From Bacteroidia bacterium (GTDB lineage Bacteria > Bacteroidota > Bacteroidia > UKL13-3): DNA of 64,000 nt. The stretch is from NCBI GenBank assembly GCA_025454875.1, contig JALONP010000003.1, forward strand, positions 1 to 64,000. The letters run 5' to 3'. This document shows, piece by piece, positions 1-8,361 of this stretch. Each line of letters starts with the position of its first letter. Position 1 is the first letter of the stretch. A program made the position numbers and the translations under genes. Under the pieces are notes generated by a model. That model was not told the origin of the DNA and did no database searches. It saw nothing but the letters and a program-made list of their open reading frames with translations.

Positions 1-2085
1 GTAAAGTGTATTCAAAGATCGTTACTTAAAATCTGAAAGCAAATCACAACCCAAACAGCTCCTCAAACTCATCCCAACTGAGTGTATTCAAAGATCGTTA
101 CTTAAAATCTGAAAGCAAATCACAACACTCATAAGTGCTTCGTAATCTGTATCGGGAGTGTATTCAAAGATCGTTACTTAAAATCTGAAAGCAAATCACA
201 ACTCTGCATCCGTGCGAATTGATATTCGTTTAAGTGTATTCAAAGATCGTTACTTAAAATCTGAAAGCAAATCACAACATAGGGAATTTTTGAAACTTTT
301 GGCCGTTAAGTGTATTCAAAGATCGTTACTTAAAATCTGAAAGCAAATCACAACCTTCCCCAGTTTCTATGTCTACATACATTTAGTGTATTCAAAGATC
401 GTTACTTAAAATCTGAAAGCAAATCACAACTAATAACGAACTACACCGCTTTTCCAACGGAGTGTATTCAAAGATCGTTACTTAAAATCTGAAAGCAAAT
501 CACAACTTATTATCGTTCATAATACAGACGGTATTAGTGTATTCAAAGATCGTTACTTAAAATCTGAAAGCAAATCACAACAGTCGAGAAACGATAAAAA
601 AAGTGATTAACAGTGTATTCAAAGATCGTTACTTAAAATCTGAAAGCAAATCACAACTACGAACTGATTGATACAGTTGATGAAATGAGTGTATTCAAAG
701 ATCGTTACTTAAAATCTGAAAGCAAATCACAACTAAGTCAGTCATTGTATTCGTCATTAGTTAAGTGTATTCAAAGATCGTTACTTAAAATCTGAAAGCA
801 AATCACAACACTATGCTGTTTATTCTGATGTTGTTTATTAGTGTATTCAAAGATCGTTACTTAAAATCTGAAAGCAAATCACAACTACTCAGATATAAAA
901 AACTGCCCGGCAGATAGTGTATTCAAAGATCGTTACTTAAAATCTGAAAGCAAATCACAACGGCTAAAGGTGTATCAATCGTTGCTGCTGAAGTGTATTC
1001 AAAGATCGTTACTTAAAATCTGAAAGCAAATCACAACCAGGAGAATGAAAATGTACGCAAATGGAGTAGTGTATTCAAAGATCGTTACTTAAAATCTGAA
1101 AGCAAATCACAACACTACAGTAACACCACATTTTGTATTACCTAGTGTATTCAAAGATCGTTACTTAAAATCTGAAAGCAAATCACAACAGCAGACCGTG
1201 AAGACTATTTAAACGCAGTAGTGTATTCAAAGATCGTTACTTAAAATCTGAAAGCAAATCACAACAGTACTCATTGTAAGTTTCGAAGATTAATAGTGTA
1301 TTCAAAGATCGTTACTTAAAATCTGAAAGCAAATCACAACTTATTGTTGTCACTTGGATCAATGCCGAAAAGTGTATTCAAAGATCGTTACTTAAAATCT
1401 GAAAGCAAATCACAACAATGCGTTTACCAAACCGTCCACTAACCTTAGTGTATTCAAAGATCGTTACTTAAAATCTGAAAGCAAATCACAACTATAAGCG
1501 GTGGTGGCGGTGTGAAAAACTAGTGTATTCAAAGATCGTTACTTAAAATCTGAAAGCAAATCACAACAATGGATGGCTAATCTTTGGCATGTTATTAAGT
1601 GTATTCAAAGATCGTTACTTAAAATCTGAAAGCAAATCACAACCATGCTGACCTAACTGTTTTTACACCGCAAGTGTATTCAAAGATCGTTACTTAAAAT
1701 CTGAAAGCAAATCACAACTTGTAACCAATAATAAAACCTCTAAAAGTGAGTGTATTCAAAGATCGTTACTTAAAATCTGAAAGCAAATCACAACACAGTT
1801 GTTGTTGTAGAACAGCAAAGTATAGTGTATTCAAAGATCGTTACTTAAAATCTGAAAGCAAATCACAACTAGATTGGTTTGGAAGAAGAACTAATTCGGA
1901 GTGTATTCAAAGATCGTTACTTAAAATCTGAAAGCAAATCACAACTTTTTGTAATACAAAACTATGATTAGTATCAGTGTATTCAAAGATCGTTACTTAA
2001 AATCTGAAAGCAAATCACAACATGGAATTGCCAAATAGGTAACGGCCATTAAGTGTATTCAAAGATCGTTACTTAAAATCTGAAA

Positions 2086-2143
2086 TGGAGCGAAGCGAAA
2101 TTCATTGATGCCATTAAAAAACAATAAACAACCCATCAATAAA
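2086..2143. repeat. 58-bp insert inside CRISPR repeat unit 28 (variant A)
   Basis: TGGAGCGAAGCGAAATTCATTGATGCCATTAAAAAACAATAAACAACCCATCAATAAA lies between ...CTGAAA and GCAAATCACAAC; internal inverted repeat TTCATTGATG / CATCAATAAA. Confidence 0.95.
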
Positions 2144-2295
2144 GCAAATCACAACAGGATCCATTCCGTTAATCCACTCCATTAAAGTGTATTCAAAGAT
2201 CGTTACTTAAAATCTGAAAGCAAATCACAACTTTGGGCATTACGGGGAAGCCTTACCAAAAAGTGTATTCAAAGATCGTTACTTAAAATCTGAAA

Positions 2296-2350
2296 TGTAG
2301 CGAAGCGGAATTCATTGATGCAATTGTAAACAAAACAACCTATCAATAAA
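2296..2350. repeat. 55-bp insert inside CRISPR repeat unit 30 (variant B)
   Basis: TGTAGCGAAGCGGAATTCATTGATGCAATTGTAAACAAAACAACCTATCAATAAA at the same intra-repeat position as the 2086-2143 insert. Confidence 0.95.
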
Positions 2351-2425
2351 GCAAATCACAACTATAACCATGCCCTCTTTTTTTATTATTTAGTGTATTC
2401 AAAGATCGTTACTTAAATTCTGAAA

Positions 2426-2480
2426 TGTAGCGAAGCGGAATTCATTGATGCAATTGTAAACAAAACAACCTATCAATAAA
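2426..2480. repeat. 55-bp insert inside CRISPR repeat unit 31 (variant B, identical to 2296-2350)
   Basis: Same 55-bp sequence at the same position; the host repeat carries TTAAATTC instead of TTAAAATC. Confidence 0.95.
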
Positions 2481-2643
2481 GCAAATCACAACATTCGAAC
2501 AACTCTAAAGTTTGTGATTGCAGTGTATTCAAAGATCGTTACTTAAATTCTGAAAGCAAATCACAACCGTAAAACGCATAAAGCCTGCTGAAGTTCAAGT
2601 GTATTCAAAGATCGTTACTTAAATAGAAAAGTATAAGCCCCAC

Positions 2644-5600
2644 TCACATTTCAGGATTTATCCAATCGATTGTTCCATCCATATTAACTTTAAAATCATG
2701 GCCTTCAACAAAAAAATCGTATTTGGAATATCCGAAACGGAGTGTTGGTTTGGAGTTTTGAAAATCAATCTCTGACTCACTATATATCTCTTCAATTTTG
2801 TTTCTTGCTTCCAAATGATGTTTGAAATTTAGTCTTCCATCTTTTTCATAATTGGTAAAAACGTATAATCTTTTATTCAACTCGTTAATTTCAAGCATTC
2901 TTAAATCTTCTTTTGCGGATTTTTTGAAAATCACTTTTAAACCTGATTCTAAAACATATGTTAGCGGTAATTCAATGGTGTTTTTACCTTTTATAATCGT
3001 AATCTTTTCTTCAAAAAGTTCTTTCGGCTTTTTTATTGGATTTAGTGAACTGAAATTTGCAGTTTCAAACAAATTCCTCATATCGAAATACTTTTTATCA
3101 TCTTTCTTGTAAATAGCAAAGTAGCAATTTGTTGCATTAGCTGCCCAATAGCTTTGCTTATAATCTTTATTAGAAAGATTAGTTTGTTTTTTTATTGCCA
3201 ATGGTTCCTTTACTTCTCCATCTTTAAATATTCGGATGTGTCGAATTTTGTTTCCATGCGGGTTACCTTCCTTGTCTAACAAATAAATTCCTTCTTCATA
3301 GGCCTTTTTAAAACCACCTGCTCTCTTTGCATGCTCTTTTATTTGTTTTTTCAACCCTTCATCAACTATCTTTTCTATGCTATTAAAGTCGGCTGTAAAA
3401 GGTACTCTCAATACATATTTAACCTGATCTTCTTGAATAAACTTACCGTTTTCATCTTTTAACAAGTTTCCATTTTCTCCTCTCTTTGAAGGTTTTATTG
3501 CACCGTAAAAAGTATCTTGGTGTAGTTGACCGCGAATTGAATCACCTGTTGCCAATTTGTTCACTTTTGTTCCATCAGTCTTCTCAATGAAAACCTCCTT
3601 ACCTCTCTTTCTTATTTTTCTTTTTGAAGGAGTAAGTTCTTGATTATTGGTTATGTTGTTTATTAAAATATTATCATCAATGTTCAAGATGTACTCTCGT
3701 TTAAATCCTTTGTATGGTTCAGTTTCCGTAAACTTTGTTCTATTCTCTTTGGATTCATAATATTTCTCAAGAATTGCATCGCGCTTAACTGCTACTGGAA
3801 TAATTGTTAATACTGCTGCATCTTTTGCATGATGCGAATGTTTACTACGATCTTTCTTCTCATCGGCAACTTGCAATTGATAAATCTTTCTAAAAGCAGA
3901 AGTAATACTTCCTTTTTGAACATCAACTTTGTCAAAATAAGTTTTTAGATAGTGGAAAGCATATTTAGAAATCAATTGAGTGTCTACTTTCTGACTATTT
4001 TTAAAGCCACTTGTTATTTCAGTAATTGTAAATCGGTTTAATTTATTTTGCCAATAATCTAATTCCATTTGCCACAAATGTCGTTGACGAATTGCATCGT
4101 CTTTCCATGATTTATTAGACGCCTTTTTGGCTTTTGTCTTCCAGAAATCGACTTGCTGCCTAATTCGTTTCACCCTCTCTTCCCAAGCCTCCAATCTAGG
4201 CTTTATTGCGGTACATTTACCTATTGCTCCTCCAAAGTCATAGTCCTTATCATAGTTCTGCAACTCCGTTGGTATTTTATTTTTTTTGACGGTCCTATTA
4301 TAATCATGATAGCAAACTGTAATGTTAGCAAGAGAGTTATCAAAAGATTTACTTCTAGGTAGAGTATGTTCAAAATCAATCACATTATCGTCAAACAAGT
4401 CTGTTAGCCTAATTAGTTTCCCTGTGTATAAACACTGATAACCCTGCTCCTTCCATAATTTGTACTTTTCAATAAGCTTTTTACCATAACCGTTCCAGCG
4501 TATTACATCATCTTTAGCATTAGCTTTTTTCTTTTTCTTGGCAACATTTTCATCATCTTCAAATTCAATTACAGGAGGTAGCAATTGATCTTCATATTGT
4601 TCGTAAAACAACCTTAGTTTATCAATGTCATTATTGCTTACAGCACTTGCTTTGATGGTATTATCCTCTTGTAACAATCGTTTAATTGCCTCTGCAAATT
4701 CTTGATTTTCAGATTCTCGTTGACGCTGCCAGGCTTCTATTGCCCAACGTCTATTGGCATCATTTAGCTCTCGGGCTACCTCAACAACAATCCTAGTTTC
4801 GTTGTCAATTTGATTGGTTTCAATCATATAGTTCAACAGCTTGCGAAGTTCGTGTAAAGTGCGCATCGCCATTGGATTTTTAAACGAGCCAGTTTTGGGG
4901 CTCCCTAATTTCACAATCCCATCCTTATCTGCTTTTGCTGTAGGATAAATATTGATTTCAGATGGATGATAAATTTTTGAAAAACTTTCATCGTCTAAAT
5001 GTTCAAAATTATTCTTTAAGAAATCTTTTAGTGTATCAATCAACTTAGGTAATTGATAGTAACCCGTTTCTGTTCTGTAATAATTTTCGCCATTTGACTG
5101 AATAGTTACCAATCGCTCCAAACTACCTTGATTTCTAACAATTCCTTGATTAGCGAAATATGCTTGGTAACAATCTTTAATACTATTAAATATTCTATCC
5201 TTTTCTGAGTCTAAAAGAATGGCCCATTTATTTGAGCCAAAATACTCTAAAACAACATTTCGAATATCATTAAAATCACTATCATCTAGTTTGTAATTTT
5301 TATCCTTAAAACCGAACTTTTCACTAGCCTCTAAATTTTTATGCCTAGAAATTAGTGTATTTACAATGTTAAGTATTGACTTCTGTTGGCGGTTTTGATC
5401 AATAACACTTCCAATATTATCCAATAACAATAGCTCATTCTTTTGCCACAATTCCTTTCCTAAAACATTCGGAATATTGGCCAACAAAACAGCCTCTGTA
5501 TAAATCAATCCTTTTTCTAAAAATACATTGATTTTATTTATCGCATTTATGCTAAGCATTCCGTAGCCAACCGGACATGCGTTCCAAGCTATTACAAACT

Positions 5601-6969
5601 GCTTTAATTTTTCTGAATCAAGCTTTAGTTTACTTTCAGCAAATTCAGAAACATACTCTTGGTCTTCATAGCTAAATAAAATATGCCAAACATCTTCAAT
5701 GTCGTAATAGTCTTTCCCTGATTTAGATTTCTGTTCTTTCTTTATTTTGATATGCAAAAAGTCGTTACCAAATATATCCTTCAATCTTGCAGATACGGGA
5801 CAAGCTGTTACTGTTGTTTTAGGTGAATAGTTTAACTGCCAATTTTTACTTTTATCTTTTTTGCCCAAGAAAGTTACTATATCCGAAAACGGGAAATATG
5901 CTTTTGACTTCCTAAAAAACAACTCGTTATAAATATCTTGTTTTAACTCAAGCGGCAACTGATTCCATTCGTTATTTTCTTTGTATTTAATATTGTTTAG
6001 AAATGCCCATGCACGAAACTTTTCAAATGAAGGATGACTTATAGGTGCGCGATACTTATTGGGCTCTAAAGTACATTTACCAATAAGTCCCTTTTGTGAA
6101 CGTAACGGTCGTTTGTAAAATATGCTACCATCATTTTTATTCCTACCCGTTTCAACTAGTTTTATATATAGTAAATTTTCAAAATTAAACCCCTGAAATT
6201 GAAAAATGTATTTAATCTCATCTTTGTAGTTTTCTCTGATGGCATGTTGTGAAATATTTTCTCGAATCCTTACTTTTTCATCTTCAAGTAAAGCAAATAA
6301 CCATCCAATTGTTTTTGCTTCTACGTGGCTTTCAAACAACTCTGCAATAAGTTTATTTTTTTTCTTTTCTGAGTACTGCAAATCCATTACTTCATTTTCA
6401 TCTGTATCTTTTTCTTTAATGTCATCTGCCCCTTTTCTACTACTTTTAAAGCCTCTGCGTTGTGCAATATGATAAAGCGCTCTTCCCAATTTGAAGCGGT
6501 TTTCTTCCTTTGTAAAATCAAGTTTTAATCCAGCTAACTCTTTTCTAAGTTGATATGGGCTGGAATAATCAGGCAATCCATCCATGTTGAAATCCAACTT
6601 TATCCAAGCATCAAAAGCAAGATTCCAAGTAGGATAAATACGCCCTCCATTATTGTTTTTTCTAGCCTCGTTTTTATCAAAATGCCTCCATTTGTTTAAG
6701 TCCTCAATATTCAGCGGACAATATCCTTCTGTTATTAAATGCTCTAAAGTAGCCCACAATCTATATTTGCGAGATTGATAAAGACGTCTTGCCGATCGTT
6801 TTTTTGTTCGTTCTGCGGCATACGAATACTCGCCTGTTTTACCTAGACCAACACCTTTATTAAATGTTAGCACACCATATTTTTCAATTTGATTTCCGAC
6901 TAAGTCGGGATTTCTTAAAGCCCATCCAATAGAATTTGTTCCTAGGTCAAGTCCGAAAATTTTATTCAT
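2644..6969 (-). CDS. cas9: CRISPR-associated endonuclease Cas9 (type II-C-like, 1441 aa)
   Basis: RuvC-I MNKIFGLDLGTNSIGWAL; Arg-rich bridge helix ERTKKRSARRLYQSRKYRL; HNH VIDFEHTLPRSKSFDNSLANITVCYHDYNRTVKKNKIP; RuvC-III HSHHAKDAAVL. Confidence 0.98.
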   Translation of the reverse strand: MNKIFGLDLGTNSIGWALRNPDLVGNQIEKYGVLTFNKGVGLGKTGEYSYAAERTKKRSARRLYQSRKYRLWATLEHLITEGYCPLNIEDLNKWRHFDKNEARKNNNGGRIYPTWNLAFDAWIKLDFNMDGLPDYSSPYQLRKELAGLKLDFTKEENRFKLGRALYHIAQRRGFKSSRKGADDIKEKDTDENEVMDLQYSEKKKNKLIAELFESHVEAKTIGWLFALLEDEKVRIRENISQHAIRENYKDEIKYIFQFQGFNFENLLYIKLVETGRNKNDGSIFYKRPLRSQKGLIGKCTLEPNKYRAPISHPSFEKFRAWAFLNNIKYKENNEWNQLPLELKQDIYNELFFRKSKAYFPFSDIVTFLGKKDKSKNWQLNYSPKTTVTACPVSARLKDIFGNDFLHIKIKKEQKSKSGKDYYDIEDVWHILFSYEDQEYVSEFAESKLKLDSEKLKQFVIAWNACPVGYGMLSINAINKINVFLEKGLIYTEAVLLANIPNVLGKELWQKNELLLLDNIGSVIDQNRQQKSILNIVNTLISRHKNLEASEKFGFKDKNYKLDDSDFNDIRNVVLEYFGSNKWAILLDSEKDRIFNSIKDCYQAYFANQGIVRNQGSLERLVTIQSNGENYYRTETGYYQLPKLIDTLKDFLKNNFEHLDDESFSKIYHPSEINIYPTAKADKDGIVKLGSPKTGSFKNPMAMRTLHELRKLLNYMIETNQIDNETRIVVEVARELNDANRRWAIEAWQRQRESENQEFAEAIKRLLQEDNTIKASAVSNNDIDKLRLFYEQYEDQLLPPVIEFEDDENVAKKKKKANAKDDVIRWNGYGKKLIEKYKLWKEQGYQCLYTGKLIRLTDLFDDNVIDFEHTLPRSKSFDNSLANITVCYHDYNRTVKKNKIPTELQNYDKDYDFGGAIGKCTAIKPRLEAWEERVKRIRQQVDFWKTKAKKASNKSWKDDAIRQRHLWQMELDYWQNKLNRFTITEITSGFKNSQKVDTQLISKYAFHYLKTYFDKVDVQKGSITSAFRKIYQLQVADEKKDRSKHSHHAKDAAVLTIIPVAVKRDAILEKYYESKENRTKFTETEPYKGFKREYILNIDDNILINNITNNQELTPSKRKIRKRGKEVFIEKTDGTKVNKLATGDSIRGQLHQDTFYGAIKPSKRGENGNLLKDENGKFIQEDQVKYVLRVPFTADFNSIEKIVDEGLKKQIKEHAKRAGGFKKAYEEGIYLLDKEGNPHGNKIRHIRIFKDGEVKEPLAIKKQTNLSNKDYKQSYWAANATNCYFAIYKKDDKKYFDMRNLFETANFSSLNPIKKPKELFEEKITIIKGKNTIELPLTYVLESGLKVIFKKSAKEDLRMLEINELNKRLYVFTNYEKDGRLNFKHHLEARNKIEEIYSESEIDFQNSKPTLRFGYSKYDFFVEGHDFKVNMDGTIDWINPEM

Positions 6970-6989
6970 AGTATTGTTTTTAATGGTTT

Positions 6990-7070
6990 TTTATTTAATG
7001 TTGTATTGCAAATCACAATAAGGCTATAAGCCGAAGATTTCTTGGCCCTGCTTTGGTGGGGCTTTTTTTG
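6990..7070 (+). ncRNA. Candidate tracrRNA (5' end uncertain)
   Basis: Anti-repeat GCAAATCACAA (7008-7018) matches the + strand repeat end; then a GGCT-ATA-AGCC hairpin and a terminator hairpin GCCCTGC-TTTG-GTGGGGC (7045-7062) followed by TTTTTTT. Confidence 0.85.
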
Positions 7071-7191
7071 TCAATCAATTTCAAGCCCTTAAACATTCTG
7101 TAACTTCCAAAACTAGTTAGACTTAGTTGCAATAAGAAAAATAATGATATAGGGTACAACATGCTCGGGGTTTTATCGGATTAATCGTACA

Positions 7192-7509: not shown

Positions 7510-8361
7510 CTATAGCTTATTTCTTTTTTTCTTTTGTTTGGCATCTTTCAAAATTTTCCTCTCGTCACCTTCCAATTTTCGTTGCAGTTTCTTTACATCT
7601 TCTGCTATTGGGAGGTTTTCGGGAATGATACCCCTTTTGTTCAGCATATCTCTCACTGCTGTATTGTTGTCTATATGTTCCTTTTCAATTTTACTTTGCC
7701 CTGTTAAATCTTTGCTTTGTACATTTAAACCAGTCATTTCAGCAGCCAAGTCTTTTGCTTTAATGCTGATTGTAGGCAAGAAATCAGCCACTGGTCTGTT
7801 ATCAGGAATACCCATTTTTTTCTTTAACATTTGGGTATTCAATCTAAAAAGTGCTTGGTCGCCTTTTGAACGAATGATAGCGAAACCTTGGCTGTCAACG
7901 CCCCTTTCATATAAAACACCTGAAAGTTGTTTTTCTGTTTGGCTTAGTTTTTCTCTGGCAATTACTCTTTCATTTTCTAATAGCCTTTGCTCTACCAATT
8001 CTGCTCTGCGGGTTTGTACGGCAAAGTAATTTTGAGCAAAAGAGATTTCTTCCTTTCGGCTGTCTCCATTTTGAGCCACCAAATAACAAGCATAGCGGGT
8101 AAGTAAAATGTCGTCTATTTCGTGTTTTGCGCCTTTTCCCGCTTCTATCACCTTCCTGACGTCAGGAAAGTGATTCGAAATATCTTCTCCTGCATTTGTA
8201 CAAGCACTTTTCGCCTTTTGAATTACCTTTTCAAAATTTTCCCATTTGTTGTAGCCCAAAAGCGATTGTAGTTCTCTGGCACTCCAACATTCAATGCCTT
8301 CTATTTCGGCCGCTGCCGCTTCAAATTGGGCAAACAGATTCTTTATTTCTTCTGATTTCAT
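7510..8361 (-). CDS. dinD: DNA damage-inducible protein D-like (BRO-N type N-terminus)
   Basis: EGIECWSARELQSLLGYNKWENFEKVIQKAKSACTNAG... and SFAQNYFAVQTRRAELVEQRLLENERVIAREKL..., characteristic of DinD. Confidence 0.9.
   Translation of the reverse strand: MKSEEIKNLFAQFEAAAAEIEGIECWSARELQSLLGYNKWENFEKVIQKAKSACTNAGEDISNHFPDVRKVIEAGKGAKHEIDDILLTRYACYLVAQNGDSRKEEISFAQNYFAVQTRRAELVEQRLLENERVIAREKLSQTEKQLSGVLYERGVDSQGFAIIRSKGDQALFRLNTQMLKKKMGIPDNRPVADFLPTISIKAKDLAAEMTGLNVQSKDLTGQSKIEKEHIDNNTAVRDMLNKRGIIPENLPIAEDVKKLQRKLEGDERKILKDAKQKKKRNKL

Follow-up and report, generated by a model that had tools for sequence, protein, structure and literature searches.

The window, by which we mean the whole stretch of 64,000 nucleotides analysed here, opens inside a CRISPR array (positions 1-2624, crRNA sense on the minus strand) that abuts the 3' end of cas9; its contig (C25) begins within the array. 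The cas9 gene (2644-6969, minus strand) encodes 1441 aa, matches NCBIfam TIGR01865 (E 4.5e-116) as well as the Pfam domains HNH_4, RuvC_III and Cas9_a, and is transcribed in the direction of the crRNA. Upstream of it, on the plus strand at about 6975-7078, sequence and co-folding predict a tracrRNA with a full-length anti-repeat (GCAAATCACAAT) and a terminator hairpin. The cas2-side end of the array lies on contig C21 beside cas2 and cas1, and is tied to the window by the common repeat. The order of the locus is cas1>cas2>[array]<cas9, from which it follows that the units discussed here are cas2-distal. With cas9, cas1, cas2 and a predicted tracrRNA, and without csn2 or cas4, the system is of type II-C. 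Comparing the spacers of the array with the window yields no self-targets when up to 7 mismatches are allowed. A Bro-N domain protein is encoded at 7510-8361, adjoining the cas9/tracrRNA region.

Split repeats in the type II-C array

The repeats are 46 nt long (an A followed by GTGTATTC...CACAAC; GTTGTGATTTGCTTTCAGATTTTAAGTAACGATCTTTGAATACACT in crRNA sense) and are separated by spacers of 29-30 nt; intact repeats are all identical except for a single A>T in units 31 and 32. Units 28 (2052-2155), 30 (2262-2362) and 31 (2392-2492) are split precisely between CTGAAA and GCAAATCACAAC, that is after nucleotide 12 in crRNA sense (GTTGTGATTTGC^TTT), and both flanking halves of the repeat are complete. 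Unit 28 contains a 58-bp hairpin insert, variant A (2086-2143, minus strand), recovered by the covariance model with an E value of 7.8e-16. Units 30 and 31 contain a 55-bp hairpin insert, variant B (2296-2350 and 2426-2480, both minus strand), recognised from sequence and covariance model. The two B copies are identical to each other and share 84% identity with A. Intact unit 29 (2186-2231, minus strand) is flanked by interrupted units, and intact unit 32 (2522-2567, minus strand) has the A>T variant in common with unit 31. The array closes with a truncated terminal repeat, unit 33 (2598-2624, minus strand), of which only the portion lying 3' of the insertion region (crRNA sense) is left. The conserved core of the inserts occurs in the window at these three places only (chance expectation 0.00).

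The first-pass annotation of this DNA, made from the sequence alone, had described the three split units and the intact units 29 and 32, and its coordinates, insert lengths and split site are all borne out. Also correct is its remark that the insert boundary is ambiguous by 3 nt (AAA), so that the target duplication in the CRISPR repeats is either 0 or 3 bp (AAA/TTT). The stem that it drew in crRNA sense, 10 bp with one U-G pair, holds for variant A; variant B forms 9 bp, the top pair being lost. Folded singly, both variants have an unexceptional energy (z about -0.5 and -1.6); the evidence for a hairpin is the covariation across the family.

Co-folding of the repeat with the predicted tracrRNA, at 37 C, without Cas9 and dependent on the assumed tracrRNA start, yields a long upper stem and a 12-bp lower stem (GUUGUGAUUUGC) separated by an internal loop. 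The inserts enter at the edge of this loop. When the interrupted repeats are co-folded, the lower stem and most pairs of the upper stem are kept and the insert forms a branch of its own; in UBA6183, a genome described below, the upper stem is partly rearranged. In these models the insert is predicted to add a branch while the pairing of the guide RNA with its partner RNA is spared, which suggests that insertion at the internal loop may be tolerated and insertion within the first 12 nt may not.

Recurrence in other genomes and position in the array

Five further genomes carry a member of the same family at exactly the same site (GATTTGC^TTT), four of them in arrays and one in a solitary repeat. 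The inserts measure 51-58 bp, and 65 bp in one array. Among 43 loci encoding a related Cas9 that we examined for inserts, one (L034 of UBA6183, contig G054:C49; best-segment identity 82%) has a homologous 55-bp insert at the identical position in its terminal cas9-adjacent repeat. Its repeat halves follow the repeat type of UBA6183 and not that of the window, so the insert is not simply an old repeat inherited unchanged. In G573 two units are split at GATTTGC^TTTC. A model of insert plus flanking repeat (R3) turned up three more genomes. The G711 array adjoins cas2, cas1 and cas9 and counts 57 units, of which repeats 1, 2 and 4 after a partial first one are interrupted by near-identical inserts and repeats 3 and 5-56 are intact. 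In G628, with cas9 and cas1 adjoining, repeat 1 of 57 is interrupted. G697 has a solitary interrupted repeat, and the 12 kb examined around it hold no array. The same model run on 396 genomes across the phylum gave zero additional CRISPR cases, hence such insertion is uncommon overall; the majority of related arrays (about 25 whose end is visible) lack an insert. Insertion inside type II repeats that is precise, recurrent and site-specific, one of the possibilities raised for the window, is now seen in six genomes, and the element sequences come from at least three lineages.

The inserts cluster as A, B and the UBA6183 copy; G573, G628 and G697; and G711 apart. To judge from these sequence clusters, colonisation probably took place on three or more separate occasions. 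The copies of G628, G697 and G711 have lost the pairing of the 5' stem arm with the 3' arm and look like immobile relics.

What the first-pass annotation overlooked is the polarity of the array: the split units of the window all lie at its old, cas2-distal end. Across the six genomes the inserts occupy mostly the oldest array units, and in each of the five arrays whose old end is visible the interrupted units are all among the six nearest to it. Counted from the cas2-distal end, the interrupted ranks are 3, 4 and 6 of at least 36; 1 of 11; 2, 3 and 5 of 57; 1 of 57; and 1 and 2 of 8. A post hoc permutation test on the summed ranks finds none of 400,000 permutations as extreme, and the gap of unknown size in the window array would only strengthen this result. 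Split units are interleaved with intact ones in two of the five arrays. That the cas2-distal end is the old (trailer) end we infer from array anatomy rather than from a measured direction of acquisition: in relatives, cas2 and the first repeat are separated by a leader-like stretch rich in AT, and their cas2-distal terminal repeats are often truncated or altered. Old-end repeats that are truncated or altered, here and in many relatives, are a likeness to type II-C arrays with degenerate terminal repeats in general, but the present case differs in being the precise insertion of a dispersed family that affects non-terminal units too.

Several other irregularities were seen in these arrays. The terminal cas2-distal repeat retains only its promoter-side (3') half in the window (2598-2624) and in L035, L053, L055, L065, L074 and L076, which suggests that the tracrRNA-pairing half of this repeat is dispensable. 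An unrelated GC-rich palindrome splits the terminal repeat of L037 (reverse strand, near 4415) no more than 2 nt from the insertion point, and another one lies 4 nt further on in the terminal repeat of L035 (reverse strand, near 3020); both support a permissive or exposed zone. In G573 (L206, 900-1400) several units have the palindrome TCCCGATGGAAAAATCGGGA in place of the spacer and repeat ends, and a segment TTGAGTGCTGCC substitutes part of the repeat. After unit 34 of G628 (L219, reverse strand) there is a 34-nt spacer containing GATTGAAAGCAAATCACATC, a near-complement of the start of the array's own repeat. The spacers of units 41 and 42 in G711 (L218, 11662-11813) are identical, a sign of tandem unit duplication via repeat-repeat recombination. 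Beyond the array end in L043 (reverse strand, near 5150-5230) the start of the repeat recurs in inverted and slightly diverged form, giving a large hairpin.

A dispersed hairpin family

The dispersed copies that the first-pass annotation proposed to look for are absent from the organism's own genome and present elsewhere in Bacteroidota. Neither a pattern search with 3 mismatches nor the covariance model finds a further insert copy in the own 3-Mb genome; the only near matches, on contigs C21 and C26, fall within what appears to be coding sequence and are ascribed to chance. A covariance model of the three distinct CRISPR inserts (R1) picks out two clear homologues in G185, a distant genome, where neither lies in a CRISPR array; one of the two has a 21-nt loop segment in common with variant A. 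With these homologues added (R2), the family is present in 138 of 401 genomes of G185's order, which is another order of the same class. A match on G054 contig C99 (E 0.008) falls within the coding end of a gene and was rejected.

Aligning 71 R2 matches (54 distinct) gives as the unit NTTATTNATN, a loop of ~20 nt, NATNAATGAG and CTCGCTTCGCTCGG. The characteristic features are a covarying stem of ~9 bp, a T-rich loop of ~20 nt and a C/G-rich tail ending near CTCGG/CTCCA. In the 54 distinct copies, six of the nine stem pairs show changes in both partners (72 cells of this kind, where shuffles give 13.7) and 96.7% of the stem cells are paired (against 36-53% in slid controls), counts that lean towards the model's own structure because the alignment was fitted to it; none of 500 shuffles matches the cells paired or the covariation score. 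G828 and G781 contain tandem copies (51 and 52 bp, head to tail) that start with TTATT and end with CTCGG/CTCAG. They give the ends of the unit directly, and these ends agree with those of the CRISPR inserts within 1-3 nt. Most dispersed copies are embedded in larger composite repeats, and stand-alone mobility is seen mainly in the CRISPR repeats and the tandem copies. In G185's order the hairpin copies lie inside several different larger palindromic repeat families, as a mosaic (L163, L189-L194, L199, L203 and others).

Every intact CRISPR repeat is a clean empty site; among the loci fetched outside CRISPR no clean one was found. Beside the copies no gene family recurs, only the low-complexity repeats themselves. 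The family is unmatched in an Rfam search, and searches of phages, plasmids and IMG/VR give no convincing match. It appears to be unnamed and undescribed, as the open-access literature that we searched contains no paper naming it.

Known short repeats offer partial parallels. Haloquadratum walsbyi has SMRs, which are short, free of transposase and target duplication, strongly prefer other elements and have an enigmatic mobiliser, and PATEs, transposase-free short repeats with near-terminal palindromes (PMC3119063). The present family resembles both as a short transposase-free repeat; it differs in having no detected inverted terminal repeats, in phylum and sequence, and in that its repeated target is the CRISPR repeat. 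The MITE reported for CRISPR in Haloquadratum hit one spacer, not the repeats (PMC3119063). As to derivatives of IS200-IS605 such as PATEs, our family shows a hairpin and tandem junctions, but a related autonomous IS was not found. It is not a MITE by its ends (TTATT..CTCGG), which are not inverted repeats, and the genes near copies include no autonomous partner. With REP/BIME elements (PMC6006769, PMC3733652) it shares dispersed short multi-copy hairpins, composite arrangements and a structure conserved over sequence, whereas the large loop, the second short hairpin and the absence of a RAYT (TnpA-REP) neighbour at 60 loci set it apart. The GTAG/GTGG foot of REPs is not conserved either (feet vary between TGTAG, TGGAG, CGAAG, CCGAG and CTTAG). 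Copies flanking a RAYT were not found at the 60 Y1 loci; one RAYT remnant lies near a G793 copy. Finally, IS or MITE insertions in cas genes inactivate CRISPR-Cas (PMC10359306). Those too are mobile DNA inserted in CRISPR-Cas loci, but the present element, of 55 bp, occupies a single fixed nucleotide position within repeats and is probably not inactivating.

Origin of the inserts and what they mean

We consider it probable, at roughly 0.7, that the inserts result from site-specific insertion of a mobile hairpin, small and non-autonomous, which the duplex loop and old repeats can tolerate. A small non-coding Bacteroidota repeat would insert at one fixed position of the type II repeat with a target duplication of none or at most 3 bp, possibly moving in single-strand hairpin form by means of an enzyme provided in trans. 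The site would be permissive because it lies at the internal loop of the duplex, so that both paired stems survive. Old cas2-distal units would retain inserts through weak constraint there and less recombination of a split repeat with its neighbours. Identical copies in neighbouring units may reflect local spread via copying, gene conversion or repeat-to-repeat insertion, and interleaved intact units may have escaped insertion altogether or lost it precisely, through slippage across the hairpin from one flanking TTT triplet to the other. In favour of this reading are the dispersed family with its covarying stem, the unit ends given by the tandem copies, the same-site insertions in other genomes, the polarity and the co-folding. 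Against it stands the own genome, where the lack of another copy leaves no visible donor. A mobilising enzyme was not identified either: none of the 60 Y1-transposase loci has a significant-score copy within 1.5 kb, and G816 carries its copies without any Y1 gene. Also counting against it are the relic-like copies of G628, G697 and G711, the absence of a clean empty site among the fetched non-CRISPR loci, and the composite repeats that hold most dispersed copies.

The strongest competitor, which we hold to be a serious though less likely account, is a single insertion in an early leader-proximal repeat that was copied at acquisition and dropped from some daughters. Gap filling across the hairpin, flanked as it is by TTT direct repeats that allow slippage, would drop the insert, and loss at the leader-proximal end would leave the younger repeats intact. 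This explains the clustering at the old end, the identical inserts of units 30 and 31, the near-identical ones of G711 repeats 1, 2 and 4, and the interleaved intact units. The first-pass annotation had argued that simple copying fails. That goes too far for units 30 and 31 and for G711 units 2 and 4, whose identical inserts fit acquisition copying with occasional precise loss, but it stands for A and B. These are, as it had said, too different for recent mutual copies: they differ by 16% and their flanking repeats are identical, so the window array needs at least two insertions. The loss itself has not been directly observed. Much weaker is the suspicion of a chimeric assembly or of ordinary long spacers, both having been named by the first-pass annotation as what would overturn its claim. 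The genome is a draft and its contigs break within the array, but independent recurrence of a homologous insert at the same site in five other assemblies, exact repeat halves, and spacers of normal length on both sides of the split units make it very improbable.

Two further explanations seem unlikely to us, about equally so. Selection may keep interrupted cas2-distal repeats for a function, for example as an anchor that guards old spacers against recombinational loss or, at the 5' end of the pre-crRNA, as an RNA element. The same site and the same end in five arrays of two bacterial families speak for this, as do the different palindromes near that point in L037 and a few nt further in L035, and the CRISPR inserts are mutually slightly more alike than the dispersed ones (0.70 against 0.64). 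Yet stem pairing is broken in three genomes, insert-free arrays prevail among the relatives, and the G697 repeat persists although no array accompanies it in the 12 kb examined. Alternatively, the hairpins may be REP-like and linked to a RAYT/Y1 transposase. They are indeed hairpins of high copy number with a target duplication of none or at most 3 bp, most carrier genomes have Y1 genes, and atypical structures in this phylum are reported in the RAYT literature; but the 60 Y1 loci lack flanking copies, G816 has 10 copies and no Y1 gene, the foot varies, and the loop counts about 20 nt instead of 2-5 nt.

Going beyond the mobile hairpin as such, we regard as doubtful the idea that one of its lineages has specialised on the internal-loop site as a safe harbour, and that split repeats stabilise the oldest memories by blocking repeat recombination. 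The earlier wording that the element targets the inside of type II repeats is apt for some landing sites and does not cover its whole biology, since the family is dispersed and common in another order. The open-access papers searched contain no description of recurrent insertion into CRISPR repeats. The phenomenon is real and recurrent; the most fitting label is that of a new small mobile hairpin repeat family whose class of target is likewise new and precise to the nucleotide.

Small mobile DNA can thus strike CRISPR repeats recurrently and with nucleotide precision, at a place where guide function is predicted to survive. Such units may be missed or broken up by array finders built on the assumption of constant repeats. 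The hairpin family, which appears unnamed, occurs in one third of the sampled genomes of a single order. Since the targets in an array are identical and ordered by age, CRISPR arrays could serve as natural insertion recorders from which the rates of insertion, copying and loss of a tiny element may be read.
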